In this document: in pieces, positions 13,203 through 39,600 of the stretch
Layout: the number at the start of each line of letters is the position of its first letter
Position numbering within the stretch: the stretch's first letter is position 1
DNA from: Candidatus Aenigmatarchaeota archaeon
GTDB lineage: Archaea > Aenigmatarchaeota > Aenigmatarchaeia > QMZP01 > JAFGSV01
NCBI GenBank assembly: GCA_021163005.1
Contig: JAGGXP010000037.1
Coordinates: 1-41,914, forward strand
Reading direction: 5' to 3'
Length of the DNA stretch: 41,914 nt
Program-made: the position numbers and the translations under genes
Notes under the pieces: model-generated
Told to the model about the DNA's origin: nothing
The model's database searches: none
Seen by the model: only the letters and a program-made list of their open reading frames with translations

Positions 13203-13203
13203 C

Positions 13204-15267: not shown

Positions 15268-15271
15268 AACA

Positions 15272-17571: not shown

Positions 17572-18351
17572 TTATGCACGTGTTCTTCCGAAGCCGAAAA
17601 ACCTTGCTATCCTCGAGAGGAAGGTCTCGGGAACATATTTCTCCCCTATGAGCTTTCCGGCAAGTTCAAGGAAAGCCCGGCTCGCAGGCGATTCAGGGTC
17701 AAAGGACACAACAGGTGTCTTCAGGGCAAGGCTTCTCAGGACATTCTTGTCCATTGGCACAGTGCTTATTACATTCAGTTCGGAAAGCTGCTCAACCTCC
17801 TGCACGCTGAGCTCATATCTCTCCTTGCCTACCATGTTAAGCATTATGCCGAGCGGCTTGGTGTTCATCTCAAGGGCAACCTGATGGCATTTTATTATGT
17901 CCATTGTCGAAGGCACGAATGGCGTGGATATGAAAAGCACCTCGTTGCTGGCCCGCATGGTGGCCATGGCCTCGCGTCCCATGCCCGGCGCGCCGTCAAG
18001 AAGCACTATGTCGGCATCTTCTGAAAGCTTCTTTATGACACGCGAAAGCCTGCTTACGTCCACTCCCCTGAGGTCCTTAAGCGACAGCGAGGCCGGAATT
18101 ACCTTCAGGTTCGGAACGTGGTAGTCGTATATGGCTTCGTGTATCTTCGACTTTCCGGTGAGCACCTGGTTGAGCGTGACGGGAGAATAATACATCCCAA
18201 GGTAAAGGCTGAGATGGGATGTCGTTATGTTGCAGTCAACTATTATGACCTTCTTCTTGTAATATGAGGCGAGGGCTGTTCCCAGATTGGCTACGGTTGT
18301 GGTCTTTCCGACGCCTCCCTTGCCCGAAAGTATTCCTATAACCCTTGTCAT
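17572..18351 (-). CDS. minD: MinD/ParA-family ATPase
   Basis: A 259-aa deviant-Walker ATPase. The A motif KGGVGKTT is at residues 11-18, with signature Lys11 and catalytic Lys16. Switch regions include IIVDCNIT and IVLLDGAPGMG. The C-terminus ends FLSRIARFFGFGRTRA, an amphipathic basic helix of the kind that anchors MinD to membranes. Archaeal MinD proteins position surface structures such as chemoreceptors and archaella rather than FtsZ. Here it sits directly upstream of a membrane-anchored coiled-coil operon, so it may place that assembly. No minE or minC is seen. Confidence 0.92.
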   Translation of the reverse strand: MTRVIGILSGKGGVGKTTTVANLGTALASYYKKKVIIVDCNITTSHLSLYLGMYYSPVTLNQVLTGKSKIHEAIYDYHVPNLKVIPASLSLKDLRGVDVSRLSRVIKKLSEDADIVLLDGAPGMGREAMATMRASNEVLFISTPFVPSTMDIIKCHQVALEMNTKPLGIMLNMVGKERYELSVQEVEQLSELNVISTVPMDKNVLRSLALKTPVVSFDPESPASRAFLELAGKLIGEKYVPETFLSRIARFFGFGRTRA

Positions 18352-18405: not shown

Positions 18406-19074
18406 TCACCACTTCAAGTTGCACAGCAGTTTGGTCAGTTCCTCCTCGCTGCTGAACAGCGCCGGAAAGCCGTCTGAACCTCCGATTGTTGAATGAAGCT
18501 CATACATGTAATTAAGCAAATCTGCCCCTGTTCCGAGTGACAGTGCTGTGGCTATCATCTTTGACACTATCTCAGCGTTGTACTTTTTGGAGAAGGCTAT
18601 CATGTTCGAGAAGAACACGTAAAGGAATACGTGCAGGAATATATATCTTCCGTATGTTCCGAGTATGTCGCGGCTGCCCCTGTAGAGTATCCTCAGGTTG
18701 GAAAGCTCGAAGAAGTATTTCCTGTAACTTTCCATGAACGGCTGGACGTATTTCCATTTCTCTTTCACAGCAAGCTCCGGGGACCAGAAGCCGCCCAAGG
18801 TTTTCTCCTGGCCGAAAAGCCCGTAGATGTATTCGGGTATCCATTCGAACCTTGGCTTTATCCTGTTGCCCACTATGTCTATGTACCTCTGCTCTTCCAT
18901 CAGCCTGAAAAGGGGCTTTCCCAGTCCCGCCTCGTTGTGATACAGGTAATTGGTTTTGATGTCCCAGATGGTCTGTATCCTGAAGAGTGATATGCCGTCC
19001 TTTTGTCCGGCGCAGCTGAGCCATATCAGCCAGAAGTTTTTGTAGTCAGTGAGCCTTTCCTTGACTTTTCCCAT
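18406..19074 (-). CDS. Conserved-looking protein of unknown function (222 aa)
   Basis: The family is not recognised. The chain is rich in aromatic residues (Tyr, Phe, Trp). It has a helical, mostly soluble N-terminal half (MGKVKERLTDYKNFWLIWL) and a hydrophobic patch at about residues 140-160 (FLHVFLYVFFSNMIAF), possibly a buried or membrane-associated helix. It has the overall feel of a winged-helix protein, but no motif proves that. A TATA-like box at 19098-19109 lies 24-35 nt upstream. It ends 54 nt before minD and may be co-transcribed with it. Confidence 0.75.
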   Translation of the reverse strand: MGKVKERLTDYKNFWLIWLSCAGQKDGISLFRIQTIWDIKTNYLYHNEAGLGKPLFRLMEEQRYIDIVGNRIKPRFEWIPEYIYGLFGQEKTLGGFWSPELAVKEKWKYVQPFMESYRKYFFELSNLRILYRGSRDILGTYGRYIFLHVFLYVFFSNMIAFSKKYNAEIVSKMIATALSLGTGADLLNYMYELHSTIGGSDGFPALFSSEEELTKLLCNLKW

Positions 19075-19248: not shown

Positions 19249-22200
19249 CTAATATGCGGTCCCGCCGAGCGCTTTGAGCTTTTCGATGTTTCTCTTGCGC
19301 AGTTCGTTGTAAGCCGTCTCTGAAATGATGCCCTGCTTGAACTCCCTCTCGAGAAGCGAAAGAACCTTTTCTATCTTCTGTTTCTCCTCTTCCTTCCTTG
19401 CGGCAGCCTCGGCATCGAAGCGCGTCCTTGACGCAGACGGGCCAAGCTCAAGGAGCTCCTTGCCCGTGCTGAGTTCCGGGCTGCGCTTCCTGAACTCGAA
19501 TATCTTTTCCAGGCGCTTTTTGTATCTGTTTGCCACGATTACCAGTGCCAGCACAACTATGGTCAGCAGGAGTATGAGTGTCAGCATCCAGTCCGGAATC
19601 TCTATTATGGTCGTTGGCTTCAGGGGCGGGGCATTCCTGAGCAGCTCCCTGCCCCGGTCAAGCAGCCTCCAGCCCGTAGTTACGGAATCAAGTGCCTCAT
19701 CAAACATGCGTGCATCAAGATAGCCCTCGGTGAGTTCTATCTGGTGTTGTATCTCGCCTATTATGTCCTTGACCCTCGAAAGGTCCTTCTCGCCCCGCTT
19801 CTCTTCGACGTCGACATCCTCTTTGAATTCCTCGAATGCCTGCTTGAGCTTCTTGAGCTGGTATCTCACGAGATCCTCGCGCGAGCCGAACACTATGATG
19901 GACGTGAGCTTCTCGTCGTAGGCCTCGTCTGAGCTGGCGTTGATTGTTCCGTAGTACTGTCTCGCCTCAGTACCGGGAGGCACGAATATGTTGAAGGTGA
20001 ATATCTCCGTCCCGCCAGGATTGAGCAGAGGCAGCAGCTTCGGCGTCACGTTGTACCAGCTGTCGGGTATGCCTTCCAGAACTACTTTTACATTGTGGAG
20101 AACAGCCGTGCCTGTGTTGTTCACTGTCACCGATGGGTACTGCGTCCAGCCGGTTTCAGTGGTTATCTCTTCCGGATATTTGCTTATCTCTATGGACGGG
20201 ACCGGCGGCGGGCCTGCAGGCCCTGCCGGCGCCCCTCCTTCGCCGCCCCCGCCGCCTCCCGGCGGCGGACTTGGACCGGATGGAGGTGCTTCTGTGGTGT
20301 TGAAATACTTGTAGGCAGCTGCCTTCTCAGTGCCGGAATAGGTAACCACGAATGTTATCTTGGCTTCTCCGAGATAGCTTATCCCCGAAGGGTATATGCT
20401 GTGCGTTATCTCTGAATTGGCAGGAACGAGAACCGTGTCAAGGCCTTCCTCAAGCGACTGCCCGGTATCCCTTCTGGTGAGGTTCCACTGTATGAATGCG
20501 TCCTGGGAGTCGTCGCCGGTGTTCTCTATTACAACTGTTATATGGAGTTCCGGTATACTGGCGTCAACAATGTTTATGTCCCTGACATCGAAAGGCCCTC
20601 CGACAAGTCGCGTGTAAATATCCTTGGTTATTGTGTTGCTGTCCTTGGTTATTGTGACTACCCAGCGCCAGTTGCCCTGGTTCGAAGATGTGGAAGTATT
20701 ATAGTATCTCAGGTACCTGCCTGTCGAAAGCTTTGTCATGCTCTGGTTTGAGAGTATGAGGTTGTCAAGCGGGTCGTAAAGCGAGACCTCTATTGTGTCC
20801 GGGTCTATGTTGCCCACACCGTCTGTAACAACTGCCACAATCTCCAGCCCGTCGGTTGTGCTGGTCTGGGCAGGTGCCTCAAGGTCGAGTGTCAGCATCC
20901 CGGGTCTTGTCTGCAGTACAGTGAAGTTGACAGTCGTGCTGTTGTCAACTGTCATAGAGACAGCCGAATCGTAGAATTCTGAAAAGGAGTTGATGCTGTA
21001 TGTGCCTGTGACGGAGTCTGAGTAGAGGTCGAATATGGGGTAATAGTCCGGCTCGCCCTGGCTGTTGGTCGTGAAGTCAGCGTTCTGCATGAGCACAAGC
21101 CTGCCGAGTGGGTCTGTGATGTTTATGCTCACATTCGTCCCCTGAAGAGACAGCCCCTCGGCATCCGTGACTCTGTAAAGTAGCGTGCCGCGCTCGCCCT
21201 GATAATATTCTCCTGTCTGTCTTGTCGTGGAAAGGTTGACAACAAGCAAAGTGTATGCATAGAAGCTTGAGTTTTCGGTGTCGTTTAGACCGGCATTGTC
21301 CTCTGCATATACCTCTATCGTATAGTTTCCCCTTTCCGTTGTGTCGCCCCATGTGCCGTTCACCGGGTCTGTGGGATAGAACTCCTGATAGGTGTAGGGA
21401 TCTGTGGACGTGCCGACGCGCCTCATTTTTATCTTGTCAGTGCCGCCGCCAGGGCGTTTAACAGTCACAGTTGTAAAGTTTATGCCGTATATGCCCGCCT
21501 GGTCCGTGACATAGACAAGGATTTCAGCGCTTCCCAGCTGAGGTATAAGGGAAGGCGTGAGGTTTATGCTTATGAGTGGCGCAACGAATGGTGTCAGAAG
21601 GACGCTGAAGTTCCTGCTCGCCGGCTGGCCGCCGGCTGCGGTGACATTGTAGCTGGCGTTGTAGAATACAAGCGGATCACCTGTGACATTGTAGAATATC
21701 TGGAATGTTGTGCTTGTCTGGTTCTCGAGCTGGAAGGATGTCAGTTCAGGCCATGTGTTGTTGTTCTCGCTCGTGCTTGTGGCAGCCGGGCTTATGCTGA
21801 ATGAGATGTTGACGTTGCCTGTGTTGTTTATGGTTATGTTGCAGGCCGTTCCGTTATCCGGGCTTTCGGGATGCTCGCAGCTCGCGGGGTTCAGCACCCA
21901 TGTCCTGCTTTCAGGGACAGTTATGTTGAACTCTATTGTCTTGTAGCCGCTGTTGTTCGTGGTGACATTTATGTATCCGAGGTATGTGCCGTTGGGATAG
22001 CTGAGCGGTATGCTTCCCGTGACATTGACTGTTATTAACTGCCCGGGATAAACTATGCCGTTCTGTGTCTGTGTCACATTCGGAACTGCTGTAAGATTGA
22101 AGTTCTTGAAGTTTCCCATCTCGTCGCCTATTGTTATTGTGACATTCGTGACGTTGTCATTGCCCGTCGAGTTGAGGGTGAAGTTTGCTATGACACCGGA

Positions 22201-25200
22201 GCTGTTGTGCTCGAGTGAGCCTGCGATGCTGTCCTCAGGTATGGTGAGATTCACATTGGACAGGACTGTCACATTGACTGTGCTTGTGTTTTCCCATGTC
22301 CCTATTTCAGGGTTGAACCATAGAACTGTCACATTTACAGTATAGTTTCCTGAAGGCGTTCCGTTGGATACTTCTATTGTGAATGCACCGGAGCAGTTGC
22401 CTCCGGACAGCACATCGCCGCAGCTGTAAGGCGTTGTGTTTGATGTGGTCAGCAGCGCATCAGAAAAGCTAAGGGTGACGTTTGTTGCAAAAGCTGTTAT
22501 GTTGCCGGCATTGCTGGTGTTGAAGCTGACCGTGAAGTTCTCGGCTGTGTAATAGGTTATGTTTTTGGCTGTGTAGTTTTCCGGGCTTATGTCAAGGGTC
22601 ATGTTCGTTCCGGACACTGTGATGTTGAACTCAAGTTCTTCATAGCCGTCGTCTGAACTCGTGACGTTGAGTGTGCCTGTGTAGAATCCTGTGCTGTATC
22701 CGGACTGAACATCAAGATAGACCTCTGTGTTTTCCGAAATGCCTGCGCCAAGCCCGGAATAGCTCGGCGGGACAAACGTGAATGTGAATTCCGGCGGGAA
22801 GCCCGTGACTGTGAAGTTGACTTCAGAAAGCGGCGCGTTACCAAGCGATTCGACTGTCAGGTTTCCTATGTTTTTCTGCACGCCGGATGCCACAAAGCTT
22901 GTTATGTTGGTTTCAGGCACATCGAGTATGTAGGTTGGGTTGACTGTCACGTTCATGGATGTCTGGTTCTGCTCATGGGAACCTACCTTGTTGTCCCACT
23001 CAACTGTCGCGTTTACTGTGAAGTTGGCTGGAGCTGTAGTTTTCAGGACTGTTATATTGAAGTTGATGATGCACGACTTTGATATGGGTATGTCCGGATT
23101 GCCTTCGCCGTCATCACAGAAGGCTGATGTGGCGTTTGCTGTCATGTTGGGCGGTATCTCTATGCTGACAGAGGCATTGAACGCTGTTCCGTTTGCTGTG
23201 TTGGTGGAGTTTACCGTCAGCATGAAGCTCTCGTTGTCTAACCATGTGACATTCGTTACAGTGTAGGAAGTTGGGGAAACCTCTATGTCCACATCAGTCT
23301 GGGTCTCCTCTGCGCTGAAGTCGTATGTATCGGAACCGTTGTTCCCGTCCTTGCTTGCGGTGCAGTTGAGTGTGAAAAGACCGAAATATCCCGGCGCCGT
23401 GAAGTTGACGTCATAGGTTCCGTTGTTGAGGTCCAGTATGTTCTCCTGAGCGACGTCATAAAGCTTGCTGGCTCCCTGATAAACCGAGCAGTTGACCTGG
23501 GCTCCCGGATGCCATACGTCCTGCCTGTAGTTCATTACCTTCACCGTGGCATTGACCAGCCTGCCTACGTCGCCTGTCGGATTCGCTATCTGGGTGTCAA
23601 CGAACAATTCGCTGGTGATTGTGAAGTTCACTGAGGATGTGTTGGCTACGCTGTCGTAGGCGTCAAATATCAGTGCGGTTGCTGTCCAGATGCCTGTCGT
23701 TTCTGAAACAGAGATGTTGAAGAGGTTTGTGAATACCATGTCGCCGGATGTTTGGTCGCCGTGCGTGCCGTCGTCGTACATGCTCAGGTTTATGTCATCA
23801 GCAGTTGAAGGCGTTCCGTTGTTCAGCGTGACGTTCACAAAGCTCGTGAGGCCGTAGGGGTCGTAGCTGACGTTCACGGTGAGCAGCACTGTCTCGTTCC
23901 TGTTGTAGTATGCGTGGTCTGTATCTGTGCGCGAAAGCAGTGTCTTCGGTTCCCCGACCTGCTCGGTTATGTTGTACGGACTTTTGACAGCGTTCTTTAT
24001 GTTTATGAACTCTGTCGTTCCGCCGCGTCCGAAATAAGCAAGCAACTTCTGTATTATGGACTGGCCGGGACTTACTGTTGTGTTTGAGAGCTCTATGCCT
24101 ATTCTGCCGCCTTCGATGGAACTGTTCGTGGAAAAGAATTCCGGAACCGTTTCGTTGAGGTTCACTATGCCCGTTATTTCAGTGCCGTCCGAGAACAATG
24201 AATACCACGAATATGGGTCTGTTTCGTTGCCATCATATGGATTGGTCGCGGGGCTGGAACCTATCCCCTGCCAGCCCCTCACAATATCGAAGGCCAAGGC
24301 GCCGGCCTCTGTAGAGTTTCTTGATATGGTGTATCCTGCGGTGTTCGTGAAGTTCTGCTCTATCTTTATCCAGCTGCCTGTCTGCTCTGGTCCTGCCTTG
24401 TTGTAAATATAATATTTCTTGACCATGCGGCCCTCGCCCGTCGTCAGGCTCGTGTTGCCGAAGACTACCTCGTCTCCCTCCATTGTTATCGTCGTCCTGA
24501 CCGGGCCGTAAACAATGCTCACATTGCCTCTGAAGTCGAACGTCAGGTTGTCGGTCCCGTTTGAGTACTGGTTGTACTCCACTGTCTTCTCGTCATCGTT
24601 GGCAACGAAAAACGGCACAGGCTCAGTGGGGCTGTTGAACTTGACCTGATAAATGCCTGATGTGTTCTCGCTCCTGTTCGTGTCTATCCTGATGTCAAGC
24701 CGCGTGCTGTTTATGTGTATCTCGTCTCCTGAAAATGCATATGACAGGTTTGTCTGGTAGCTTGGCGCGGCCTTTGCTCCGTTCTCGGTTGTGTCGAAAT
24801 AAACGAAAAACGTCCTCACAGCATTGCTCTCAGTCGTACCGTTCATTATGAAAACCAGTGTGCCGAAGGCGTTTGATGTGCTGTCGTAGGCATATCCTTT
24901 GTCGAACTGGCTTGGCATTTCATGCAGAAGCCCGCCTGTGGAGTTGTATTCAAAAACTCTTGTGGAGTTGTCGTCAAACGTGCCTGTGAAACCCAGTTGG
25001 TTCAGGACATCTGTGAAGTTTATGTCCCTCTCTATGGGCCAGTTGGTGACATTGTAGTCGCCGTTCTCTATTACCAGCTTTATCCTGTAGTTCCACGTAT
25101 TGTTCCACCAGTCAAACCTGTAGACATCTATGACGTCAGTTGCGTTTATGTCGCTGTCATAGCCCTGCGAAGAGCCGTCGCAGTGCACATTCCAGTCATA

Positions 25201-25563
25201 GCTTCCTGCATCCGGGAATGTCCTTGTGTATTCGTAAAAACCGCTGCCGGAATTGTAGGTCATTGTAACCGGGGTGCTCCACGACCCTGTTGTGTTGAAC
25301 TTTATCTCGCAGTAAACCCCGCCGCCGCTTATGGGATTGCCGCTTGCAGAACTGGTGTAATTGGCATAGAACGTGACGTCTTTGTTTATGATGGCAGGCA
25401 CGGAGCCGCCTTGCGTATCCTCCGTGCTCCAGATGCCGAGCTCGGAATTGGTGCCGGAAACAAATGTGTAGAAACCTGTCAGCTGCTGGCCTGAAAGCAT
25501 GAGAGCCGCGGCTACGGCTGCGGCAATCACTACTATGACCGGTACTGTGCTTTGCCTTGTCAT
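19249..25563 (-). CDS. Giant surface protein with C-terminal TM and SHOCT-like cytoplasmic tail (2,104 aa)
   Basis: Residues about 7-24 are a signal/anchor helix (VPVIVVIAAAVAAALML). The ectodomain (about 30-1985) is Asn/Thr/Ser-rich with very many NxS/T sequons and repeated Ig/CARDB/NEW3-like beta modules (TVEWDNK, LNVTSSDDGYEELEFNITV, repeated NVTxxNTG patterns). A Pro/Gly hinge spans about 1758-1790. A membrane-proximal beta domain and a helical segment (KDIIGEIQHQIELTEGYLD) follow. The TM helix is near 1991-2013 (WMLTLILLLTIVVLALVIV), and a cytoplasmic tail of about 90 aa ends in a SHOCT-like helical hairpin (about 2060-2098). The tail motif matches three copies in the upstream-encoded 692-aa protein, whose stop overlaps this start by 4 nt. 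The two probably interact. Confidence 0.9.
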   Translation of the reverse strand: MTRQSTVPVIVVIAAAVAAALMLSGQQLTGFYTFVSGTNSELGIWSTEDTQGGSVPAIINKDVTFYANYTSSASGNPISGGGVYCEIKFNTTGSWSTPVTMTYNSGSGFYEYTRTFPDAGSYDWNVHCDGSSQGYDSDINATDVIDVYRFDWWNNTWNYRIKLVIENGDYNVTNWPIERDINFTDVLNQLGFTGTFDDNSTRVFEYNSTGGLLHEMPSQFDKGYAYDSTSNAFGTLVFIMNGTTESNAVRTFFVYFDTTENGAKAAPSYQTNLSYAFSGDEIHINSTRLDIRIDTNRSENTSGIYQVKFNSPTEPVPFFVANDDEKTVEYNQYSNGTDNLTFDFRGNVSIVYGPVRTTITMEGDEVVFGNTSLTTGEGRMVKKYYIYNKAGPEQTGSWIKIEQNFTNTAGYTISRNSTEAGALAFDIVRGWQGIGSSPATNPYDGNETDPYSWYSLFSDGTEITGIVNLNETVPEFFSTNSSIEGGRIGIELSNTTVSPGQSIIQKLLAYFGRGGTTEFINIKNAVKSPYNITEQVGEPKTLLSRTDTDHAYYNRNETVLLTVNVSYDPYGLTSFVNVTLNNGTPSTADDINLSMYDDGTHGDQTSGDMVFTNLFNISVSETTGIWTATALIFDAYDSVANTSSVNFTITSELFVDTQIANPTGDVGRLVNATVKVMNYRQDVWHPGAQVNCSVYQGASKLYDVAQENILDLNNGTYDVNFTAPGYFGLFTLNCTASKDGNNGSDTYDFSAEETQTDVDIEVSPTSYTVTNVTWLDNESFMLTVNSTNTANGTAFNASVSIEIPPNMTANATSAFCDDGEGNPDIPISKSCIINFNITVLKTTAPANFTVNATVEWDNKVGSHEQNQTSMNVTVNPTYILDVPETNITSFVASGVQKNIGNLTVESLGNAPLSEVNFTVTGFPPEFTFTFVPPSYSGLGAGISENTEVYLDVQSGYSTGFYTGTLNVTSSDDGYEELEFNITVSGTNMTLDISPENYTAKNITYYTAENFTVSFNTSNAGNITAFATNVTLSFSDALLTTSNTTPYSCGDVLSGGNCSGAFTIEVSNGTPSGNYTVNVTVLWFNPEIGTWENTSTVNVTVLSNVNLTIPEDSIAGSLEHNSSGVIANFTLNSTGNDNVTNVTITIGDEMGNFKNFNLTAVPNVTQTQNGIVYPGQLITVNVTGSIPLSYPNGTYLGYINVTTNNSGYKTIEFNITVPESRTWVLNPASCEHPESPDNGTACNITINNTGNVNISFSISPAATSTSENNNTWPELTSFQLENQTSTTFQIFYNVTGDPLVFYNASYNVTAAGGQPASRNFSVLLTPFVAPLISINLTPSLIPQLGSAEILVYVTDQAGIYGINFTTVTVKRPGGGTDKIKMRRVGTSTDPYTYQEFYPTDPVNGTWGDTTERGNYTIEVYAEDNAGLNDTENSSFYAYTLLVVNLSTTRQTGEYYQGERGTLLYRVTDAEGLSLQGTNVSINITDPLGRLVLMQNADFTTNSQGEPDYYPIFDLYSDSVTGTYSINSFSEFYDSAVSMTVDNSTTVNFTVLQTRPGMLTLDLEAPAQTSTTDGLEIVAVVTDGVGNIDPDTIEVSLYDPLDNLILSNQSMTKLSTGRYLRYYNTSTSSNQGNWRWVVTITKDSNTITKDIYTRLVGGPFDVRDINIVDASIPELHITVVIENTGDDSQDAFIQWNLTRRDTGQSLEEGLDTVLVPANSEITHSIYPSGISYLGEAKITFVVTYSGTEKAAAYKYFNTTEAPPSGPSPPPGGGGGGEGGAPAGPAGPPPVPSIEISKYPEEITTETGWTQYPSVTVNNTGTAVLHNVKVVLEGIPDSWYNVTPKLLPLLNPGGTEIFTFNIFVPPGTEARQYYGTINASSDEAYDEKLTSIIVFGSREDLVRYQLKKLKQAFEEFKEDVDVEEKRGEKDLSRVKDIIGEIQHQIELTEGYLDARMFDEALDSVTTGWRLLDRGRELLRNAPPLKPTTIIEIPDWMLTLILLLTIVVLALVIVANRYKKRLEKIFEFRKRSPELSTGKELLELGPSASRTRFDAEAAARKEEEKQKIEKVLSLLEREFKQGIISETAYNELRKRNIEKLKALGGTAY

Positions 25564-27638
25564 TTTTTCTTCAGCAGCAACTCCTTGCTCCTTTCATATG
25601 CCCTTTTGCTGATTTCACCGTTCTCATAGGACTCCCTCAGCTTGGCGAGCATCATGACTCTCGCGTGCTTCTCATCGGCATGCTCCTTCCTTCCGCTGCC
25701 TCCTGAGCTCTCAGCGCTTTTCATCTTCTTCTCGATTTCCGCGAGTTTCATCATATTCGCTTCCTTGGCTTTCTGGTATTCTTCATCGCTTATCTCATTG
25801 TTCTTGTGGTTCTCCTCAAGTGTTGCAAGAAGCGTTTCTATTTCCTCCTTTTCATCCTGCAGGGGTGAAGTGGCTGCGGCAGGTGCCGGAGAGACAGATG
25901 CCTTTGAAGCCATCTCCTTCACCACATTGAGCTGCTCTTTTATGTTTTCAATGTCTGTCTTGCTTGCATAGTCAGCCATCCTTCTTGTAAGCTCTTCTAT
26001 GTTCTTCATGGTGTCTTCAGTCAGCGATGTCAGCTGGTCCTGCTTGACCTTGTACTCGGCAAACTCGTCCAGTTTCCTTTTTATGTCCACATATATGCTG
26101 TCAAGCTTTGATGATCTGGCCTTCATCCTCTCCTCTATCTCCTGTATCTTCTCCAGCTTCTCGCCCACATGCTTGCTGCCCTTCATGATGTTTTCAAGGC
26201 TGCCTATGTCTGTCATGAGCCCCTTTATCCTGTTCATGTTTTCGTTAAGCATCTTGCTGCTTCTTTCGAGTCTCTCGAGCCTCGTGTTTATATCCCTCAT
26301 CTGCTCGTCCCTTGTGGTGAACTCCTTCATGATTCTTGCGGTATCTACCTGGGAAACAGTGTCCTTGAGCTTGTCAAGAAGCATTTCCTCTTCCTTGGAC
26401 TTCGCCTCCCTCTGATAGACAACGGACCTGACCTCGGCAAAAGTTTCGGAAAGTCTTTGGAACTTCTCGTCGATGATGTTCTTTGACTCCTTGACGCTGT
26501 CCATGAGTGCCTTCATCCTCTCTATCTCTGTCTTCATCATTGTGAACTGCTTGTCGTAGTTGCCGACGCTTTGTGATGAGCTGTCCGCAACAGCCTTCGT
26601 ATCCCTGAGGGCATTTTCGAGTATCTCGAGCCTGCGCTCAAGCTTCTTGACGCGCTTGTCAGTTATCTCTACGTTGGCTGTATCTATGACATTTCTGAGC
26701 TTGCTCTCAATCTTCTCCTCGAGCAGCTTTATTATCGCATCAGCCCTGCTCGTGTCGCTTTCTGTTACTCCTGCTGCTTTTTCGTGTCCTGCAGGTGCGG
26801 GAGCCGCTGTGGTTTCGTGCACTGGAACAGATGACGAAGGCTGTGCTGCTGCCGGCGCTTTTTCTGTGGGAGGTGGTTTTTCCGCTTCAACAGGGGGTGC
26901 CTTTTCACCTGTAGCTTTTTCCAGCTTCTCAATCTGGTTGTTTATCTCCTTAAGCTTTTTCTCATTCTTCTCCTTTACCTCCCTGTATGTGGAATCCGGG
27001 AGGGTGGCATCCCTGTAAGAATCCTCTATGGAAGAAAGCAGCGCCTCTATCTCATCGCGCTCGGAAACGAGCTCGCTGAGAGACTTTTTTGGCATTTTTT
27101 CTGGCTTCTTTTTCTCCTGTGTCTCGGGTGGTTTCCCCGGAGCTGCATCAGAGGAGGCGGGGGTTTCAGCATTCTTTGTCTTTTCCGAAGGCGCTTCAGC
27201 AGGGGGGTTTGCATCAGCGGATGAAGTCTTGGGGGATGCCTGTTCAGGCTGCGCTTCAGGTTTCTTGTCCAACGCAGATTCGGCACTTTCAGGCTGCGCT
27301 TCGGGTTTCGGTTCTTCGGTTTTTTGCTGAGCCGCAGGCTCAGACTGTGCACTATCAGATTCGGCACTTTCAGGCTGCGCTTCTTCTACTGCATTAGACG
27401 CAGATTGTGCCTTTTCCGGTTGAGCAGCAGACTCAGATTCTGCACTATCAGGTTTGGCTTCGGTTTTCTTCTGGGCCTTTTCGGGCTTCGTTTTCTGCTG
27501 TACGTCAGGGCCTGGGCTTTTCAGCTTGTCCTCCTTTGCTGATGCTTCAGGACCTGAAAGCATGCCCAGAAGCTTTTCTTCGAGCTTCCTGTGAAGCTCC
27601 CTTTGCTCTTCACTCATTTTCTTTTTTTCCTTTTTCAT
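25560..27638 (-). CDS. Soluble coiled-coil protein with three SHOCT-like motifs (692 aa)
   Basis: Order: a short charged helix (1-35), an Ala/Glu/Pro/Ser linker (about 40-185), SHOCT-like motif 1 (about 193-230), a second linker, a long coiled coil (about 290-580), motif 2 (about 595-632) and motif 3 at the end (about 659-692, LRESYENGEISKRAYERSKE). Motifs have the pattern L..L......G.IS...Y followed by a basic helix, as in SHOCT and related short C-terminal oligomerisation domains. There is no TM helix or catalytic motif. It sits between the two giant surface genes, 13 nt after the first and overlapping the second, so it is the obvious cytoplasmic linker between them. The start could also be ATG 27617. 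Confidence 0.88.
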   Translation of the reverse strand: MKKEKKKMSEEQRELHRKLEEKLLGMLSGPEASAKEDKLKSPGPDVQQKTKPEKAQKKTEAKPDSAESESAAQPEKAQSASNAVEEAQPESAESDSAQSEPAAQQKTEEPKPEAQPESAESALDKKPEAQPEQASPKTSSADANPPAEAPSEKTKNAETPASSDAAPGKPPETQEKKKPEKMPKKSLSELVSERDEIEALLSSIEDSYRDATLPDSTYREVKEKNEKKLKEINNQIEKLEKATGEKAPPVEAEKPPPTEKAPAAAQPSSSVPVHETTAAPAPAGHEKAAGVTESDTSRADAIIKLLEEKIESKLRNVIDTANVEITDKRVKKLERRLEILENALRDTKAVADSSSQSVGNYDKQFTMMKTEIERMKALMDSVKESKNIIDEKFQRLSETFAEVRSVVYQREAKSKEEEMLLDKLKDTVSQVDTARIMKEFTTRDEQMRDINTRLERLERSSKMLNENMNRIKGLMTDIGSLENIMKGSKHVGEKLEKIQEIEERMKARSSKLDSIYVDIKRKLDEFAEYKVKQDQLTSLTEDTMKNIEELTRRMADYASKTDIENIKEQLNVVKEMASKASVSPAPAAATSPLQDEKEEIETLLATLEENHKNNEISDEEYQKAKEANMMKLAEIEKKMKSAESSGGSGRKEHADEKHARVMMLAKLRESYENGEISKRAYERSKELLLKKK

Positions 27639-27651
27639 TCTTCTTTACCCC

Positions 27652-30600
27652 CTACATGTTCTTCATCCTCGTCCTGACCGATTCCATGTAACTCTCGGCC
27701 ATTGTGAACAATCCCTGTTTCAGTTTGTCGAGAGCCAAATTGAGTTCGACCTCGACATCACCTGTCTGAACGCCTTTCTGCTTCATGGATTCAAGCTGCT
27801 TCTTTATGGCATCTGCCTCCCTGCTTATCTTTATGTATTTGTCAAGCTCCTCAGATGTTAGCCTCTTCGTGTCGTGGAGCAGCGGCCTGAAGGATACGAA
27901 CCATGGCTTTCCGTCGTTGTATGCGGCGTTCTGCACAAGTCCCGTTCCTGTGACAAGCTTCGTTATCTTTGATGCGTAATCCGGGCCGTATTTGGTCTTG
28001 ACCCTGTTTATGTCACCCTCGTACTTGGTCCTCAACTGTATCTCCGTGGATATGTTCGCCCTGATGGCTCCCTTGAAGTCCATGAGCACCTGCGATATCA
28101 GGAATATGCCTATGCCCCACTTACGGAACTCCCTTGCTGCCCTCTCAAGAACTATGTAGCCGCCCTTTCCGCCGTACTTCGGTAGCAGCCTGTGGACCTC
28201 GTCGTATATCATGAGCATTTTCATCTCCCTCGACTCGGGCAGCCTCATCGCGAACAGCGACTCCACTGTATTCCTCACGAACTTGTCCATTCCGCTCGGC
28301 GGAAGCTTTTCTGTCACAAGCACCGTCATCTCTCCCTTCTTGCTCATTATGTCTTTCCATGGTATGACCTGCTCTGGACTTTCAATGCCTATTATGTTTA
28401 CCTTGAAGCCCATCGCATCTTCAGGCTTCATGCCGAACTTCGGATACAGGTCAAGCATCGCCGGATCCTTGCATGCCCGCATGAATCCTGTCCACTGGGC
28501 TGTCGGATCTACGACAACCACAGGCACTCCCCTCTTGAGAAGCTCTTCTGAACAGACCTGAGCTGAAACAGACTTGCCTGCGCCTGTCGAACCGGCTGCT
28601 ATGCTGTGGGTTGTGAGGTCATCCAGCGTCATGTATGCCTTTATGTCTGTTTCAGCAACCTTTCCCACGAGCATCGACCGGTCTCCTGCTTTCGGAAGCT
28701 TGTTGACATCCATCGGGAAGATGTACCTCGTCTTGGCCTTTTTCTTTTTGCGGTATTTGTAGTAGAAGCTGGAGCCGAAGTAATAGCCAGGTATGATTGC
28801 AAACAGCAGCGCGTATGTTATCCAGCTGCTGAATATGCCCCTTATTATCTTGAGCGGCGGGGCTATGTATAGGACATCGAACGAGTCTATAGCATAAGCC
28901 TGCTTGGTGCCGTTCCAGTACGTCACATTCACCTCAAGGGAATACCTGCCTATGGGCGTGTCATCTGGAACGAATATGGTTTTCTTGAATGTTCTTACAT
29001 TCTCCATGCCAAGTGTCTCCTGCTCCCTGAGAACTATTCTCTCTGTGTCGAGGTGCCTCATCTCATAGGTGACCACAATGTCGTCTATCTTCGCTGTCTC
29101 GCCCATGTTGAGAAGAGTGAGCTCAAGCGAAAGGTTTGAATTGGGTTCGACTGTCTTTGTCAGCGCCTTCACCTTTACGTCAAGCAAAGGCTCCTTGGGC
29201 TTCTGGACCTTTACGGTTATCGGGGTGACATGCGTTATGTTCATGCCGCGTATCCTTGTGACAATGTCGCCTGTGTAAATACCCTCCATTGTGCTCGGAA
29301 GTGTGAAGACCTTTATCTTGATTGTGCCTGTGGAGCTTCCGCGTATGTCGATGGTCGGCTTCTCTATCATCACGAGCTCCCACACATTTCCGCGGACCTC
29401 AACGTCAGCTGTTATGGTCCCGGCAAGGTTGTTGTCTATATCTATGCTGTGTATCTCGTGTTCACCCGGCCTCAGTGTAACGAATATGAGCTGTGAATCT
29501 ATCTTTATCGGAAGTCTCGGCGCCGGCGGCGATATGGCTCCGCCTCCGCCGCCTCCTGCTCCGCCTCCGCCGCCTCCTGCTCCGCCTCCGCCGCCGGGCG
29601 GCTGCGGCGGCTGTGTAACCTCACAGTCCTGCGGACAGTTTCCTGAGGACTCACCGTAATCGTTTTCGCATTCACCGTTGCCGCATATGTATTCAGCCAC
29701 GGAATATGCTCCTGTCAGTTCAGACAGCGGCGCAGTTATTGTTTTCTGGGAAAGGCTGTAGTTCGTTCCGGAAAGTCTCGTCCAACTGTCTGCGCATCCC
29801 GAGCCCGTAACCCAGTTGCTGCAGTGGTATATGCCCAGAATGTCTGGGCTGACCATGTCTCCCTCATACGAGGAGTAGTTGAAGGAAAGCGTGGCGTTGT
29901 CGAATGTGAATGCGAATGTGTTGTTGCCTGAGGTCATGTTCTGGTTGGCTTCTGCTGTTATGGCCTCGAAAAGGCCCCTTGTGTTGTATCCAACGAGGCC
30001 GAGAACCTTTATCTTACCGAATGTCAGCGCGTTCAGTGTGTCGTAAAGTATGTCAGAGCCGTAGATGTCCAGTGTCTCGTTCCAGAACTTCACATTGAGA
30101 TCATAGGTTCCTGCATCTATCGTCTGGTTGTAGTAGCCGTTGTTAGTGGTGAAGTTGAAGTACCATCCTGCGTCGGTGTAATGAAGGCTGTAGTCCACGT
30201 CAAGCGGCGGCTTCGGGTCTGCTTCTTCCTCGTCATAGTTGAATCCATGGAATAGTATCAGCACCGACACTATGAATCCCCGGCTTGTCTTGTTCATATT
30301 GCCGGAAACGTCGTACGCAGTGGCGTTGATGACATAGTCGCCTGTCTGCGAGGTGTTGCTGAACTGGCCGAGGTAGGTGTAGGTGTCGCCCGTCCTGCTG
30401 ATGAACGTGAGCGGAAGGTCTTCCGTGAAGCCGGCATGAGTGACTGTAGCGCTGGCGTTCTTGACGCCGCCGGAGTCTGTCACATAGACGTATATGTCAG
30501 TTGTCGTGTTGGCGGACACCTTGGGTGTGACGCCTATGCTTATCTGCGGCGGGGTGGGGTCCTGATAGACCACGGATTTGTATTCCGTGTCCCAGTAGAA

Positions 30601-33600
30601 CAGGCTTATGTTCGTGCCGTTCATGGTGTAGTTCGCCGAGACGTTGAGGTCATAGGCCGTGCTCAGCGGAAGGTTGGGCGCGGTGAAGTTGAATGCCCAG
30701 TGGCCGAGCTGCTGGCTGTTAAGCATGTAGTCAAGGTAGGCATTGTAATATGCCGGCACCACATCGCCTGTGGAGTTCATGAGTGTCAGGTTTATGGTCT
30801 GGTTGCCGGGAACAGTGAAGTTGACGCCTGCCGCAACTGCGTCAACTGTGTAGTTGCTGCCGTTTGCCAGTGTTCTCGTGTCCTCCAGCTGGATGCCGTT
30901 CACGGTGAGGTTGAAGTATATCTCTATTCCGTTGAGGTTTTCAATAGTCAGGTTGAAGTATTCCAGGTATCCCTTCTCCACGATGCTCTCGTTGGTCTCG
31001 AATCCTGTGTCATTTGCCACAGCTGTTTCCAGCATCTTTGACTCGTTGACACTGCCGTTGACAAACCATGTCGTTATGTTCAGAGGTGTATCTGTGGTTC
31101 CGTCAGACAGCGTTGCATTCCAGGCAACGCTCTCGTTTGGCAGTATGGCCGTGGTCCCGTAAGTGAGGTTCACGTCAACCTGAACTGTCTTGTTGGAGGT
31201 TATGTTTATGACAGGCTGGGCTTCGGTCGGCGAGAGTATGTTTATGAAATAGGGGTGCACTGTGAGTATGAGCTCTGCGCTTCTGGTTATCTCGGTGCCT
31301 GCGGTGTTGTTGTAGCTTCTGTAGTAGGCCGTTACATTGGTTTCGCTGTATACGACCGGCGCGGTGTAGCTGATGTTGACATTCACGGGAATGCCGAGAT
31401 ATATTGGCAGCGTGCCGTTCGGGACTGCGCTGAAGTAGTCGCCGTCTCCTGGTACGGGCGAAATCCACGTGTCAACCACTGTCGGGTTCACATTGCCCGA
31501 ATTGCTCAGCGTCACTGTGCCAAGCTCACCGGCAGTGCCCTGTATGACATCGAGCTGGAGCAGGTTTGGTGTCTGAGTCCATGAAAGATTGGTGGGTATT
31601 CTCACAAACAGATCCGTGGTGTCGTAAAGCCCGCCGTCCGCTGCCGCCTCGAGGAGTCCTGAATAGGTTCCTGCCGGATAATCAACAGGTGTGTATATCT
31701 CTACTGTCACATCTGCTGTCTGGCCCGGTTCTATTGCACTTATCTTCTGCGGCCCGAATATGCTCGTGAAGTTTACGCAGGCCTCGCCTGATACACATGA
31801 AGACGTTATATTGGTTATGTTGGTATTACCTGCTGAGAGAATGGTCATGGTGGCGTTGCCGTATGTGATGTTGACTATGCCCATCTGGACGGTGACATTG
31901 TCCTCTATTATCTCTATCAGCGGGTTCGGCACGACCACAACAACAGCCTGCTCAGTGGAATTGGATGTGCTGTTGTCTATGTTGGTCCAGTAGGAGGTGA
32001 AGTTGAGTGTGTAATTGCCTGCAAGAGTGCCGTTGGGCACTGTAAGATTAAGCGGCGTCGGCACGCTCGTATTCCTGTATATGACGCTGTAGTTGAAACT
32101 GTCACCGCTGAGGTTCCAGCCTGCCGGAGCTGTCACGTTGACCGTGACGTTGTATGCGCGCGCATAGCCCGTGGTTGTGCTGAAGTCAATAGCCAGCATG
32201 GTCGAGTTGTGGATGCTGACGTTCTCCGCATAGTAGGCAGTCGCATTCGGGATGGCCAGCACTGTGGTGTTCGCCACTGCAGTGGCGTTGACCTCCTCGC
32301 ATCCCATCACGCCCTCGGTGTCGTTGGCACAGACCTTGAATGTGTAGAGCCCCGTGGTGTTCGTGGAATAGTTGAACCAGTAGTAAGAGCCGTTATTGCT
32401 CATGGGCGAAGTCGTGACGTTGCCGTCCGGCTGCGTCACGTTGACCCACGCGTAAACGACCTGCGTGTTGTCAGTTATGGTGGCGCTGACAGTCGTGTTC
32501 TCGAACAGTATCTCGAAGTGGTCCGGGTCTGCCCTCAGGTCGTTGATGTAAGGCGCGGGATTGGTTATGTTCAGCGTGAAGTTTATGTTCTTCGAGGACG
32601 GGGTGCCCGGCGTGCCCGTGTCAGTGTCCCATGATGTTATGACGACGTAGCCGTCTATGAGCCCCGTCGGGGCGTTCGCCGGTATGTCGTATCCTATGAA
32701 CATCTGGCCTGAAACCTGGCGGCCCACATCAACCGGATAGATGCCCAGCAGTGTGTTGTTGAGCTGTATGTACTGCTGGGCAGCGCCGCTCCTGTAAAAC
32801 GTGAGCGTCAGCTGCACATTGCCTGTGTTGGTGTAGTTTATCACTCCCAGCGTGCCGTTGGTGTCAAGTGGTGTGAATATCGTTCCTAGGCTGCCCGGCA
32901 CAGCTGTCCAGCTCCTGTTGGTGAGCACGGTTATGTTCAGCAGAGCCTCGTCAAATGCGGCGTTGCTGGCATTCGCCCTTATCTTCGTCCAGTAGTCTCC
33001 AGGAGGCTGTCCCTTCGGAACCTCCACATCAAGAGTCACAGTGAAGTTGTTTCCTTCCTGCACGTATCCCTGATAGTCTGGATTAATACCGAGTGTGCAT
33101 TCGGGGCAGTCCGTATGCAGGTTGCCTCCTATGTCAAAGACATTCACGTCAGTGATGGGTGTGTTTCCTGTTGAGGCCACTGTGAGGTTGCCAACACGTG
33201 TGTTTTCCCCATGCTGGACATCCTTATGCAGGTAGTCCTCGAGTATGTCAATAAGCGGGTTGGATGACACTATGACATTCACTATATCCTCTGTGAAGTT
33301 CTGCGTCTGGTCTGGGTTTGACCAGCTCGCATTGACATGGATCTGAAGAAGCCCCGGCGGCGTCTTCGCCTTGACGACTGCCTCCACCTCGAAGTAGCAT
33401 GACTCATTCGCGGCCATCTGTCCGCAGGTATAGTTGGTCAGCGGCGCACCGGTAGTTGCATTCCTGAATGTCACCTGGTCCGTAGACTCGTAAATGTCCA
33501 CAAAAACGTTATACGCATTGGGCGGTCCCTGATTTGTGAAGTTTACACTCATATTGAAGACATGGTCTTGTGTCTGGGTTATGCCGTCCGCTATTTCAGT

Positions 33601-36600
33601 GTCAGGTGAGGCGTTCAGGTCAGGTGTTATTTTTCCCCATACCGTGAAGTTGTAGAGTTCCGAAATGTTCAGGTTGTGCTCGTCGTACGGGTCCCATGCA
33701 TGTATCTCGACAAGGTAAAGTCCTCCCACAGGCGGATAGTACTGGGCCCTGAAAATGTCTTGGCTTGTATTGGTCATGTCAAGGAAGAAAGACGTGCCGT
33801 TCGGGTATGTTATGTTCGCCTTTACTTCATAAACCATGTAGTTGTCTGTGACAGTGGCTGTTATATTGGTGTAATTCAGGTTGGCCTCTATGCTGTAGTT
33901 TGGTATGACGCTGACATTGTATATCTGCGGCGGCTCTGTATCCTGTATATATATCAGTGCGTCTGCATCCGTCGTGGATGCGTTGTAAAGCAGCGTCTGG
34001 TTGTCGGTTATGTTGCACTTGAAGTTTATGTCTGTCTTGCTTTCAGGCACCCATAGCCTTGAAACATAACCTGTGCTGTTCGTATATTCCGTGCCGTTGT
34101 ATGTGTATAAAGACTGGCCCTCATACTTGTACCATATCTCTACTGGATAATTCTCTACCGGTATGCCGCCGTCGTCGTCCTCCACATAACAGGTGATGTT
34201 GAACGGAACCGGATACGGCTGTGTGCTCAGGTGTGGCGGACTTCCCCAGTAGACGCTGGCAGCTCCAGACACAGTTATAGTCACGTTCTTTGAAACGCTG
34301 TCGTAATGAGTCTTGGTTGCAGTGCTCGTGATGTTCTGCGTACCCGTCGTCATTGGATCGGGGTCTATATACTGCTCTTGCGTGCCGGCTCCGCCGACTA
34401 TGGTGAGCGGGGAGCCGCTGTTGTCATACCATGTCACGAGCGGGCTCAGGCTGCTGTTGCCGTTCTCGTCCCATATGCTTACATTACCCAAGAACCAGGC
34501 AAGGGTCTTCGATATAAGAGAGCCGTTCGCCGGTTCTGTGATGTTCATGTAGAGCATGCCTTTCACTTCAACTGTTGTTGTATTTGTTTCCGAGGGCTCG
34601 TTCGTTGACGGCTTTGTGGCATTCATGTAGATGACATAGTCCTGCGGGTATATGCTGTCTCCTGGATTGAACAGGAAGTAGCAGTAGCCGTTGCTGTCAG
34701 TGGTGCAGTTGCCAAGATAGCTTGTGGAGTTGTAGAAATGCACAACTGCATTTTCAGCATAGTCATTCGGCGGCGGCAGGTTGGCATCCTTCACCCTCGG
34801 CCTTATGTGCGTGGCATTCGGCGAGAATGAGTCATTCCTGTAAATCCATGTGTAGTTCTGCCAGATTTCTGCTATCTTCAGTGGCCTGTGTATTATGACA
34901 GTGGTCTGGTTGAGCCCGAAAGACACGTTGTAGTAAAGTGTCGTGTTGTCAGTTATGTTGCATGAAATGTTATGCCCGCCTGCTGTGTCGGTCTGGGTGT
35001 CCCAGAGCCACGTTGCTATTCCGGCGCTGTCTGTGTGGTTGCTGAGCTGCTGGATGCCGTCCTTCAGGAACGAGACCTCGTATCCTGTCAGGTTCTGCCC
35101 GGTATTGGCGTCCTTCACGTGGCATGTGACTGTCACCTCGTCGCCGGCCGATGCCTCTGTGTTGTTCACAGGCGAGATGTAGTCAACAGCCGCCCAGCCG
35201 TAGACGAGCACATTTGTCGTGTTTGTGTTGCCGTCGAAATACTGCCTGCTCGTGTTAACCCTCAGTATCTCAGGGCCGAGTGGGTAGTTGTAAGGCACCT
35301 GCCACGTCGTGTCGTATCCCGATGCTACCTGCGACCATGTCTCATTGTACCATGCAACACTGGTGTCATTTACATAAGAACTGCAGTCGTCCCTTACAAA
35401 AGCCGAAAGGTTGACTGCCGTGTTCCTGTTAATCACAGTTCCTGAAGAAGGCTGCTGGAGACTGACATACAGCTGGCCGTACACGACAAGGTCCTCGTCT
35501 GTTGTGGTGTATTCGGTTTCGTAGCAGACATCGTCCGTCTCGCCGTACCACTTCTGGACGCCTGCTGTCGAGTTGCACGTTGGATTGTAGGTTACCTGAC
35601 AGTAGCCGCCTGTCGTGGTATTGCATGGCAGACTTGTAAGCCCGGGAAGGTATTGAAGGTAAGCATTGGATGTGGCATTGGCAGGCTGTCCGGAGCCATC
35701 AAAAATCGTGATGTTCACTGTCTGGTTGCCGGGTACAGTTATGGAGGCGCCTGCCGCAACTGCGTCTGTTGTTGAGTTGGCGCCTGCCGGGATGCTCTGG
35801 TTGCTCGCCACCTGAAGGCCGTTGACTGTGAGGTTGTAGTATATTGTAGTGCCGTTGAGGTTCTCTATGGTGACGTTGAAGTATATGACGCTTCCGCTGC
35901 CTGTCACGGACTCCGTGTAATTCACCCCTGTTCCCGAAACTATGTAGACAAGATATGCATTGTACGTGGCATTGGCAGGAACGCCTGAAGTGTCAAGAAC
36001 CGTAAGGTTTATGTCCTGCAATCCCGGAAGCGTGAAGGATGCGCCTGCCGCAACTGCGTCTGTTGTTGAGTTGGCGCCTGCTGGGATGCTCTGGTTGCTC
36101 GCCACCTGAAGGCCGTTGACTGTGAGGTTGTAGTATATTGTAGTGCCGTTGAGGTTCTCTATGGTGACGTTGAAGTAGGATGGTGTACCTTCCTCAGTTA
36201 TGTCCTCACTGCGGTTGAATCCGTCATCAGTGCCTGTGTATATAATCTTGGAGGTGTTCAGCGCACTATGCATGAGTGCTGACGTGTAGTAGTCTCCGTG
36301 CTGCTTTATCCATACCAGCCCTGAAGCGTCGACAGGGTAGACACCAGCATCGTCGTCCTGTATGCGGAACGTGAGTGTTGCCTGAGGCGCTCCCTCTCTC
36401 CTGACTTCATCGCTGCTATTGGTGTCGTCTATTGTTGCAGTTATGTTGTCCGTCTGCAGCGTCAGTTCCATAAGCCCTGCGTAATATTCTAGATATGCAT
36501 TGTATGTGGCATTGGATGCGCTTCCTGATGCATCCATGATTGTGAGGTTGATTGCCTGGTCTCCGGGAAGCGTGAAGGATGCGCCTGCCGCAACTGCGTC

Positions 36601-39600
36601 TGTTGTTGAGTTGGCGCCTGCCGGGATGCTCTGGTTGCTCGCCACCTGAAGGCCGTTGACTGTGAGGTTGTAGTATATTGTAGTGCCGTTGAGGTTATCT
36701 ATGGTGATATTGTAGAAGCTCATCGGCGCATTCTCGCTGACTGGATGGGTATAATTGAGCCCACTCTCGTTCTGGGCTGTCTGGATAGCGCCGCTGTAGT
36801 ATTCCCCGGTTTCATCTGTGAAGCTGGAAACATCTGTCGTGTTGAATTTGAAGTATGCCAGCGGCCCGTTGAGATAATCCTGGCATGTGAACTGTATGTT
36901 CATATGCCCTGTGAAATACTGTGGATACTGCTCCGAGCATATTGGCGTCCACGGCAGCGTTCTCGAATGGTAGGCAGTAAGCGACCATGCCTGTGTGTCA
37001 AAGCTCTTGAGCACAGTTATGTTGTTCTCATTCTGGTCCTGGTCGTCTATGCACATATAGAAGTCGTACTGCTCTCCCCAGCCGCCTTCATAATGGTCTA
37101 TGTGCTGATCGTAAAGGTCCGGTGTGTTGCCAAGGTAGAATGCGTTCGGCTTTGTGGTGTCATTTGTCGCATAATACTGCTTGCTTATTATGACGCGCGC
37201 GTCATACCATGCCGGCGGGTATGTAGGCTGCGTCTGCCACGAGCAGTTGTACCACCCGTCACCTTCAGTCTCTGATATGCATGTATACCAGCAGAATGCC
37301 CCCGTGCAGGCATTCCTCTTTGCCTGGACAGTAAAGCTGTCCGCATTCAGAAGAGGCATTCCGCATTCGTCAACAAAGCTCGTTATGTTGACCTTGCCGC
37401 CTCTTTCGTATGATTCGCCATCCGGCCTGACTATTTCGACGTTCATGTTCGAGTAAAGCTCCCATGTGTAGACGCTTGAATTGGTGTCAGCATAATGAGT
37501 GTCGTTTGATATGCCTCCGAGCCAGTAGTGCAGGCCGACATCATAGAACGGTGAGTCAGTGCACTCCGGATCGAAGCTTATGTTCATGTAGCCGTTTGAG
37601 GTCGTGATGGACCAGCCGTCGTTGTAATAGGTTCCGTTGTAAGTGGTCCATATGTATCCTATTCCGTCTGGATCAACCGCCATGTCCCTGTCGGTGTCCC
37701 ATACGAGCAGGCTGAAGTTTATGTATTGCGTGCCTGACCTCCAGATGCTGTCCCCATCGCCGTCCACAAGACTCACAGAGACGTTGTCCTTCTCCACTGT
37801 GAAATTAGCGGCTGCTGTCTGGTCAGTGTTTGTGCACGTCCCGTAGTCGCACGCATTCTCGGCTGCAGTGAACCTGTATTCCCAGATGCCCTGGTCATCC
37901 TGGAAGAGTGTTGGTACATAAAGTGTCATGTTGACTGTCTCGTTTATAGGTGATGTCAATACAGTAGTGTTCCTTGAGACCCATATGGTGCTTCCGTATT
38001 TCCTTGTCTGCAGATTCACCGTGACATTGTCGAGATCCTCGTCCGTGACATTTACTACGAAAGTCCATGTCTCGCCCCACCCTCCTGTGTCAGTGCCTGT
38101 TTCGGAATACACCGATGGGACGGAAAGCTCAGGGCTCGTGACTATGTAGAAATGCTGTGGATAGAAAGCAGTTCCGTTGTAATAGAAATCCCTTGAGGCA
38201 ACGGAACTTGTGTTGTACCATCTTGCCTTGAGACCTGACGTGTTTATCTGGTACGGGTAGTTGCCTGACGTGTCTGTGACAGTCGAATAGCTGTAGTTTG
38301 TACCGCTTTCGTGTGTTACTGTTATGCTTATGTTGCTGTATGCTATCTGCTCGCACTGATCCACATCAATGGCATGCCCGACTAGTGTCACGTTCTCGCC
38401 GCGCTGGTAGAAATAGGGGTCAAGTGTGTCCAGCGTATGGTTGAACACGCCCATTATGAGCACGCTGAAGTTCTCCCCGGTTGTGACATTTGAGTCCTTG
38501 TAACATGAATCCTGATAGGTGCCGCCTTTCCACCTCTGGTAACCTACTGTATAATACTGGCACCAGGGATCAAAATCCAAATACAGGTAACCGCTGCTGT
38601 TTGTGGTGTTCTCGTTGAAGTCGTGGTAGGTGTAGTTCTCGCCGTCTGCTGTTACCCAGAATATGCCGTTTACGCCTGAGCCCACACTGGCATTTGCACG
38701 GTCCGTGTCGTTTATCAACAGTATGAACGGCGTGCTGGCAGTTCCACCTCTGCTGACGGTGCTGCCATTACCATAAACATATGTTACGAGCACGTCATCC
38801 TTCGTTATCGGAAGTCCCGTCTGGTTGCTGGTGTTGAACAGGTTCGTCCCATCATCCAGTTCGAAGCGGTATTCAGTTGCCGGACTTATGTCCCCGCACG
38901 TGAAGTCCGTTACTTGAATGAGGCATGTGCCGAGCCCGCCGTACACAGTGGTGTTGCCCTTGTCAAGCCAGGCAGAGCCGTTGTAAACCCAGAGTCTGCA
39001 GGAGACATTATCGTACTGCTTGTCGTCTATGTCAACGCTGTAGTTGAATGTCTCGCCCCAGCCGCCGTCGCTGTCGGCGGTGATGCTGAAATTCTCTGCC
39101 AGAGGCGGTGTGTTGTTGAGGTATATCCAGTTCCATAGTGTCGTTATATTGGTGTTGTAGTACTGTTGTCCAGAAGTCATCCTGATGCTCCAGTTGCCGC
39201 CTTTGTGGAATGAGGTGTCCCACGTGCAGTTGAACCAGCCATCGCCTTCCCTGTTCAACTGCGGGCAGGATTCCCATTGGTTGTCCGGAGAGCCAAATTC
39301 AAGGTTTGCAGTAGTTACATTCAGGATTCCCTCATTGCTGCAGTCTGTAGAGACATTGAACTTCACCACCAGAGTGTTCCCTACAGGCACGCTGACGCCT
39401 TCCGCGGGCTGCTCTATGTTGTTGTACAGCTGGCCGTATATGTAGGCATACCCATATGAACCCGGGAATGGTGTGTCCTTGTAGCACGAATCGCCGTAAG
39501 CGCCCGCCCACCATCCCTGCAGGCCTACTGAATAGCTGCAGTTGGGATTGAAGTCATGATAGAACGAGCCGTTGGCAATGGTTGATGTTACGTTGTCTAT

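Follow-up and report, generated by a model that had tools for sequence, protein, structure and literature searches.

A shared helical hairpin in the tail of an archaeal surface protein and in its coiled-coil neighbour

For the means by which DPANN archaea grip and use their hosts, giant SPEARE-type surface proteins are leading candidates. As far as the accessible text of the two accounts goes, these proteins were first described in nanohaloarchaea (Hamm 2019, PMC6642349) and were reinterpreted as bearing a VirB4/TraG-like ATPase, with a second VirB4-type ATPase encoded directly downstream (PMC10266531); arguments have been made for a role as adhesins, as invasins or as secretion straws (PMC6642349, PMC10266531). 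The stretch of DNA analysed here, called the window (41,914 nucleotides, a contig of a 945-kb Candidatus Aenigmatarchaeota assembly), carries on its minus strand three consecutive genes, for such a giant (C), a soluble coiled-coil protein (B) and a second surface protein (A). It raises the question of whether a short helical motif that recurs in the tail of A and in B joins the two proteins.

Layout of the locus

Protein C (27652..41913; this and all features below are on the minus strand) is a giant Ig-like surface protein whose ORF of at least 4,753 aa ends at the contig edge. A hydrophobic membrane helix precedes its cytoplasmic HerA/DUF87-type ATPase domain (27655..28668), which has an invariant P-loop and DE-H-R and is conserved in 12 aligned sequences as well as across DPANN. 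The domain scores 34.3 bits with Pfam DUF87 and 32.4 bits with HerA_C, both above cut-off, and 33.8 bits with NCBIfam CedD, which is below the CedD cut-off; no NCBIfam cut-off was reached. The DNA-translocating ATPases CedD, HerA and TraB represent the fold family of the domain, but in C the ATPase is fused to a giant ectodomain. The C-terminal helices of the ATPase look TPR-like by eye, and the motif profile described below gives no match there. C was classed as SPEARE-type by its very long extracellular region with a late membrane helix and by its conserved cytoplasmic ATPase, and it shares with these proteins, as the accessible text describes them, the long adhesive ectodomain, the late membrane helix, a cytoplasmic VirB4/TraG/HerA-like ATPase and the occurrence in DPANN groups. 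Nanohaloarchaeal MAG loci carry an ATPase homologous to that of C, and the likeness to the named SPEARE proteins rests on their descriptions.

The ORF of protein B (25560..27638, 692 aa, with matches in 24 of 41 genomes, its own and relatives) follows that of C after 13 bases and runs with its stop 4 bases into the start of A; together these suggest one transcription unit. The sequence scan of B found no signal peptide and no membrane helix; apart from three hairpins, its model consists mostly of disordered linkers and a long central coiled coil (residues ~296-580, 25899..26753) that is kept in homologues. Protein A (19249..25563, 2,104 aa), of which homologues occur within the order as well as in further DPANN phyla, is built of a signal peptide, an Ig-like ectodomain, a NEW3 (NPCBM_assoc) domain adjoining a helical stalk (19933..20151; Pfam PF10633, 51 bits), the stalk itself, one membrane helix and a cytoplasmic tail of ~80 residues. 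The membrane helix (residues ~1991-2022, 19498..19593), supported by homologue hydropathy and the model, is followed by basic residues, and the signal peptide, the single late helix and its basic flanks would place the tail on the cytoplasmic side, where the hairpin is the clearest conserved feature of A at the level of sequence. Downstream of A lie a conserved 222-aa protein (18406..19074), winged-helix-like by eye and with no family found, and an archaeal MinD-type ATPase (17572..18351), identified by NCBIfam minD_arch at 232 bits and by synteny.

The hairpin and its four copies

One module of ~40 residues with a helix-turn-helix fold is shared between the tail of A and B, which confirms the original prediction as to its presence and its four places. 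Profile searches and models locate it in the A tail at residues 2061-2100 (19264..19383) and in B at residues 194-233 (B1, 26940..27059), 597-636 (B2, 25731..25850) and, as a degenerate copy, ~655-690 (B3, 25569..25676; profile E 9e-4, or 1e-8 with a 40-sequence profile). The literal pattern first given for it, L..L......G.IS...Y....N...KL, fits none of the four copies, its spacing being wrong after Y, and should be replaced by L..[LI]......x.[IL][SP]...Y......N..KL. The spacing Y......N..KL is common to the A copy, B1 and B2, while B3 is without the N and ends in KK. Blosum62 scores of the pairs A-B1, A-B2, B1-B2 and B2-B3 are higher than those of all 2,000 of 2,000 shuffles; the weaker pairs A-B3 and B1-B3 have scores that are reached by 18 and 21 of 2,000 shuffles, respectively. 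The four copies form four conserved subtypes, with identity of 45-58% within a subtype and 28-37% between subtypes. Also, copies from the same genome are 27-41% identical, i.e. about as distant as between subtypes, and hence are not homogenised within a genome. As the subtypes are conserved separately, the copies are probably not interchangeable sticky ends.

AlphaFold2 models of A and B, for which alignments of 23 and 30 sequences served as input, predict all four copies as helical hairpins of two helices and a short turn at a pLDDT of ~88-95. The predicted helices span residues 2044-2076 and 2082-2098 in A (block pLDDT ~88-91), 187-209 and 215-243 in B1 (91-95), 591-612 and 618-645 in B2 (91-94), and 655-672 and 678-690 in B3. 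The hairpins rank among the most confident parts of the B model; it may be noted that the pTM of this monomer model is 0.24, so that the relative arrangement of the hairpins in it has no meaning. A Foldseek search with the C-terminal model of A returned generic Ig-like folds, with none for the tail among the matches listed.

Specificity of the hairpin and comparison with known domains

A motif HMM search of the proteome had been proposed as a check, and with the 40-sequence profile it gave only the four copies in the 945-kb genome (E 6e-17 to 1e-8), the next match having an E of 0.37. Since no others were found, the hairpin is, in this genome, not a motif spread over many unrelated proteins. 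The two proteins also retrieve each other. A profile of 23 B copies without any A sequence (A4) recovers the A tail of the window at a genome-wide E of 8e-8, as well as the tails of A in many relatives; across 41 genomes at E<=1e-4, 46 of its 48 matches were assigned by reading to A, B, A-like proteins of C-B loci, or fragments of these, and the remaining 2 belong to a soluble paralogue family. In the other direction, a profile made from nine tails of A (A3) recovers B1 of the window at 6e-4, with the B copies ranking next after the tails. When 503 ORFs from 80 loci were searched with the A-tail profile (i-E<=1e-3), 20 domains in A, 49 in B and one MinD-type protein were matched, and no ORF beyond these. 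This supports the hairpin as a connector specific to the C-B-A surface machine. On another contig (C29), a surface protein with a Pfam SHOCT match (E 2.5e-4) was considered as a carrier of the motif and rejected, as the motif profile gives no match. Among solved structures, neither A3 nor A4 found a significant relative by sequence, and two beta-xylosidase entries at E 0.01 with another profile (A8) look like chance.

The description of the motif as SHOCT-like stands in part. The short bihelical fold is predicted for all four copies, and like SHOCT (PF09851; PMC3581485) and the bacterial SHOCT-like domains (PMC11237479) the hairpin is short, has two helices with a similar turn and lies, in A, at the C terminus of a membrane-linked protein, as these domains often do. 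But the best score with Pfam SHOCT is 19.0 bits, in B, against a gathering cut-off of 27 bits, and no match is listed for A, so that membership of the Pfam family was rejected for all copies; weak matches occur in 9 of 30 B homologues. The hairpin also differs from SHOCT in its length (~40 against 28 residues), in the extra N..KL end and in that two of its four copies, B1 and B2, are internal in B, while the A copy and B3 are C-terminal. It had further been supposed that motifs of this type drive oligomerisation. This does not transfer to the hairpin, since the authors of SHOCT proposed oligomerisation and then tested it, and in this one direct test that we found the domain alone was a monomer (PMC3581485). 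For the bacterial SHOCT-like domains, a later study proposed membrane anchoring and a part in the assembly of membrane-proximal complexes (PMC11237479). A sub-threshold match to Sulfolobus CdvA (E 0.17 and 0.44; absent with A3) falls on its two hairpin tips, where hydrophobic residues form the head-to-tail contact of the polymer and six changes to Asp abolish filaments (PMC12818579). CdvA is, like B, an archaeal coiled-coil protein with hairpin tips, but it has a PRC domain and no surface-protein partner, and as the sequence match is non-significant the likeness is suggestive as an analogy only.

The link between A and B and its possible basis

Within the genus and family the genes are arranged as C-B-A-(222 aa)-MinD-coiled coils, an arrangement that is largely preserved throughout the order. 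With the C ATPase as query, a scan of genome contigs found 289 relatives, and the 80 best were taken as loci; they belong to DPANN groups (Aenigmat-, Nanohalo-, Woese-, Pace-, Micr- and Altiarchaeota and others), together with Hydrothermarchaeum and a few otherwise-labelled MAGs. Where more than 1.2 kb follows the ATPase gene, a B-type gene lies within 4 ORFs after it in 65 of 73 loci and is the first ORF in 50 of the 73, with the limit that it is the coiled coil by which B-type genes far from the window are recognised, and the hairpin may be missing from them. A and B had been treated as a pair; their adjacency is conserved, but the conserved unit also takes in the upstream ATPase-bearing giant. 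Over 26 loci, the motif strength of A correlates with the best score in B (rho 0.75; partial 0.69 given ATPase identity, which corrects for phylogeny by ATPase divergence alone and not by a full tree; permutation p=5e-5). A locus where Ns cut A short was left out of these figures; including it gives 0.61 and 0.53. In two loci (L119 and L129), the motif is absent from both proteins. Of the phylum, 156 genomes were compared: the hairpins of the A tail and of B occur together in 26, the A-tail hairpin only in 11, the B hairpins only in 5 and neither in 114 (Fisher p=3e-16, with kinship uncorrected and matches assigned by hand). The 11 genomes with an A-tail match and no B are partly incomplete assemblies. 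That the A tail and B are functionally linked is therefore well supported by conserved adjacency, reciprocal profile specificity, correlated motif strength and joint loss.

We favour, with the balance for and against it even in our judgement, a reading in which the A tail docks on B hairpin on hairpin and B is an elongated scaffold beside the ATPase of C. Direct docking as such is plausible on these comparisons. From co-encoding, conservation, the predicted fold, specificity and joint variation we infer binding, scaffolding and coupling to the ATPase as follows. The four copies would represent a single connector module, bihelical in fold, within a surface machine of DPANN archaea; the long coiled coil would make B an elongated scaffold beneath the membrane; the hairpins of B would hold the hairpin tails of A as small helical bundles; the scaffold would cluster A around C; and adhesion outside could thus be coupled, mechanically or by regulation, to the ATPase inside. 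The B copies probably have different partners, each being a separately conserved subtype. It had been suggested that the three B copies crosslink several surface proteins, which is not general, as B homologues carry from three copies down to none detectable; this variable number and the separation of the subtypes argue against freely interchangeable crosslinking. More tentatively, and a little short of even, the arrangement may be a conserved sub-membrane scaffold of DPANN archaea, whose coiled-coil protein ties a second surface protein, and a MinD ATPase too in some lineages, to the SPEARE-type giant by dedicated hairpin-on-hairpin contacts. If true, this would be an adhesion or secretion machine of several parts that had not been recognised before.

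Some observations run counter to docking: A and B could each have a reason of its own for carrying the hairpin, e.g. membrane association (PMC11237479), the SHOCT domain alone is monomeric (PMC3581485), and 11 genomes have the A-tail hairpin without B. The hairpins may bind, rather than each other, the same third component (such as the C ATPase domain, MinD or the 222-aa protein), which would recruit A and B side by side. The motif is found on A, on B and, at an Altiarchaeota locus (L086), on a 452-aa MinD ATPase with two hairpins C-terminal of its ATPase domain, and C and often MinD are encoded at the locus; such an adaptor would account for the correlated motif strength as well as docking does and for the data as a whole nearly as well, but four separately conserved subtypes are less expected for one binding site, and we consider it rather unlikely. 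A location on the inner face of the membrane, where SHOCT-like amphipathic hairpins would sit, or a role as mere stabilisers of helix ends, would need no contact between A and B. The membrane anchoring proposed for SHOCT-like domains (PMC11237479), the weak SHOCT matches in B homologues and the distance of at most ~100 residues between the A copy and the membrane are in line with this, which nevertheless appears improbable, as a generic anchor would not be expected to be confined to the locus within the genome, to be missing from both proteins in L119 and L129 or to vary in strength together in A and B. Finally, each hairpin could bind copies of its own protein (A-A, B-B) and so build arrays in which A and B do not touch. 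Separate subtypes would fit, as would a match to CdvA on its two contact tips, but that match is non-significant, SHOCT alone did not multimerise (PMC3581485) and the joint variation of A and B is not predicted, so that we regard self-association as very improbable.

In the accessible text of the SPEARE accounts (PMC6642349, PMC10266531), no B-type partner, second A-type anchored protein or hairpin is described, and in the literature searched, with partial coverage, we found no description of the A/B pair or the hairpin. A and B are apparently an undescribed conserved partner pair of a SPEARE-type machine, and together with the shared connector they give it an architecture open to test. The hairpin is retained though A-type proteins span ~360 to 2,100 aa; in one A-like protein of 511 aa (L100), a zinc ribbon is present in addition to the NEW3 domain, the stalk, the membrane helix and the hairpin, all of which are kept.

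Variants of the surface protein and its partners

Some tails of the type found in A, the 2,104-aa surface protein, end in a zinc ribbon just past the two-helix hairpin (loci L073:14778-20999 and L100:12276-13811). In loci L085, L091, L102 and L116 the 692-aa coiled-coil protein B is divided into two ORFs that lie immediately 3′ of the ATPase gene, that of the giant protein C: a short one carries the copy-1 hairpin, and the remainder is in a longer one. C itself (window 27652-41913) holds in its middle several near-identical ~55-residue repeats (FNVTIENLNGTTIYYNLTVNGLQVASNQSIPAGANSTTDAVAAGAS...), which suggests a recent amplification of repeats in the ectodomain. The copy-1 region of B is also found in a soluble protein of 339 aa (genome G000, contig C35:8427-9446, the same as L057:8427-9446), in which a coiled coil can be seen by eye and one end looks OB-like. 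An NFACT-type gene adjoins its gene, and relatives are present in genomes G002, G003 and G005.

Genes beside and downstream of MinD

Three large coiled-coil proteins of 661, 687 and 691 aa (window 11193-17257) are conserved downstream of MinD. They gave weak SMC/Rad50-like matches, and the motif profile did not match them in the own-genome search. The 222-aa protein (window 18406-19074) shows 45-82% identity among relatives and has no match in Pfam or NCBIfam; in its N-terminal half it resembles a winged helix. Its gene adjoins MinD even at loci where little is left of A, B and C. One such locus, L139:8719-11068 in the near relative G002, retains MinD and the 222-aa gene, together with a 197-aa frame that carries the motif of the A tail. 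B and C are not recognisable nearby, and this locus is decayed or misassembled.

A MinD fusion in Altiarchaeota

In an Altiarchaeota MAG (L086:5378-6736), two hairpin copies are fused C-terminally to a MinD/ParA ATPase in one protein. The fusion gene comes directly after B and A, and a second, stand-alone MinD adjoins it.
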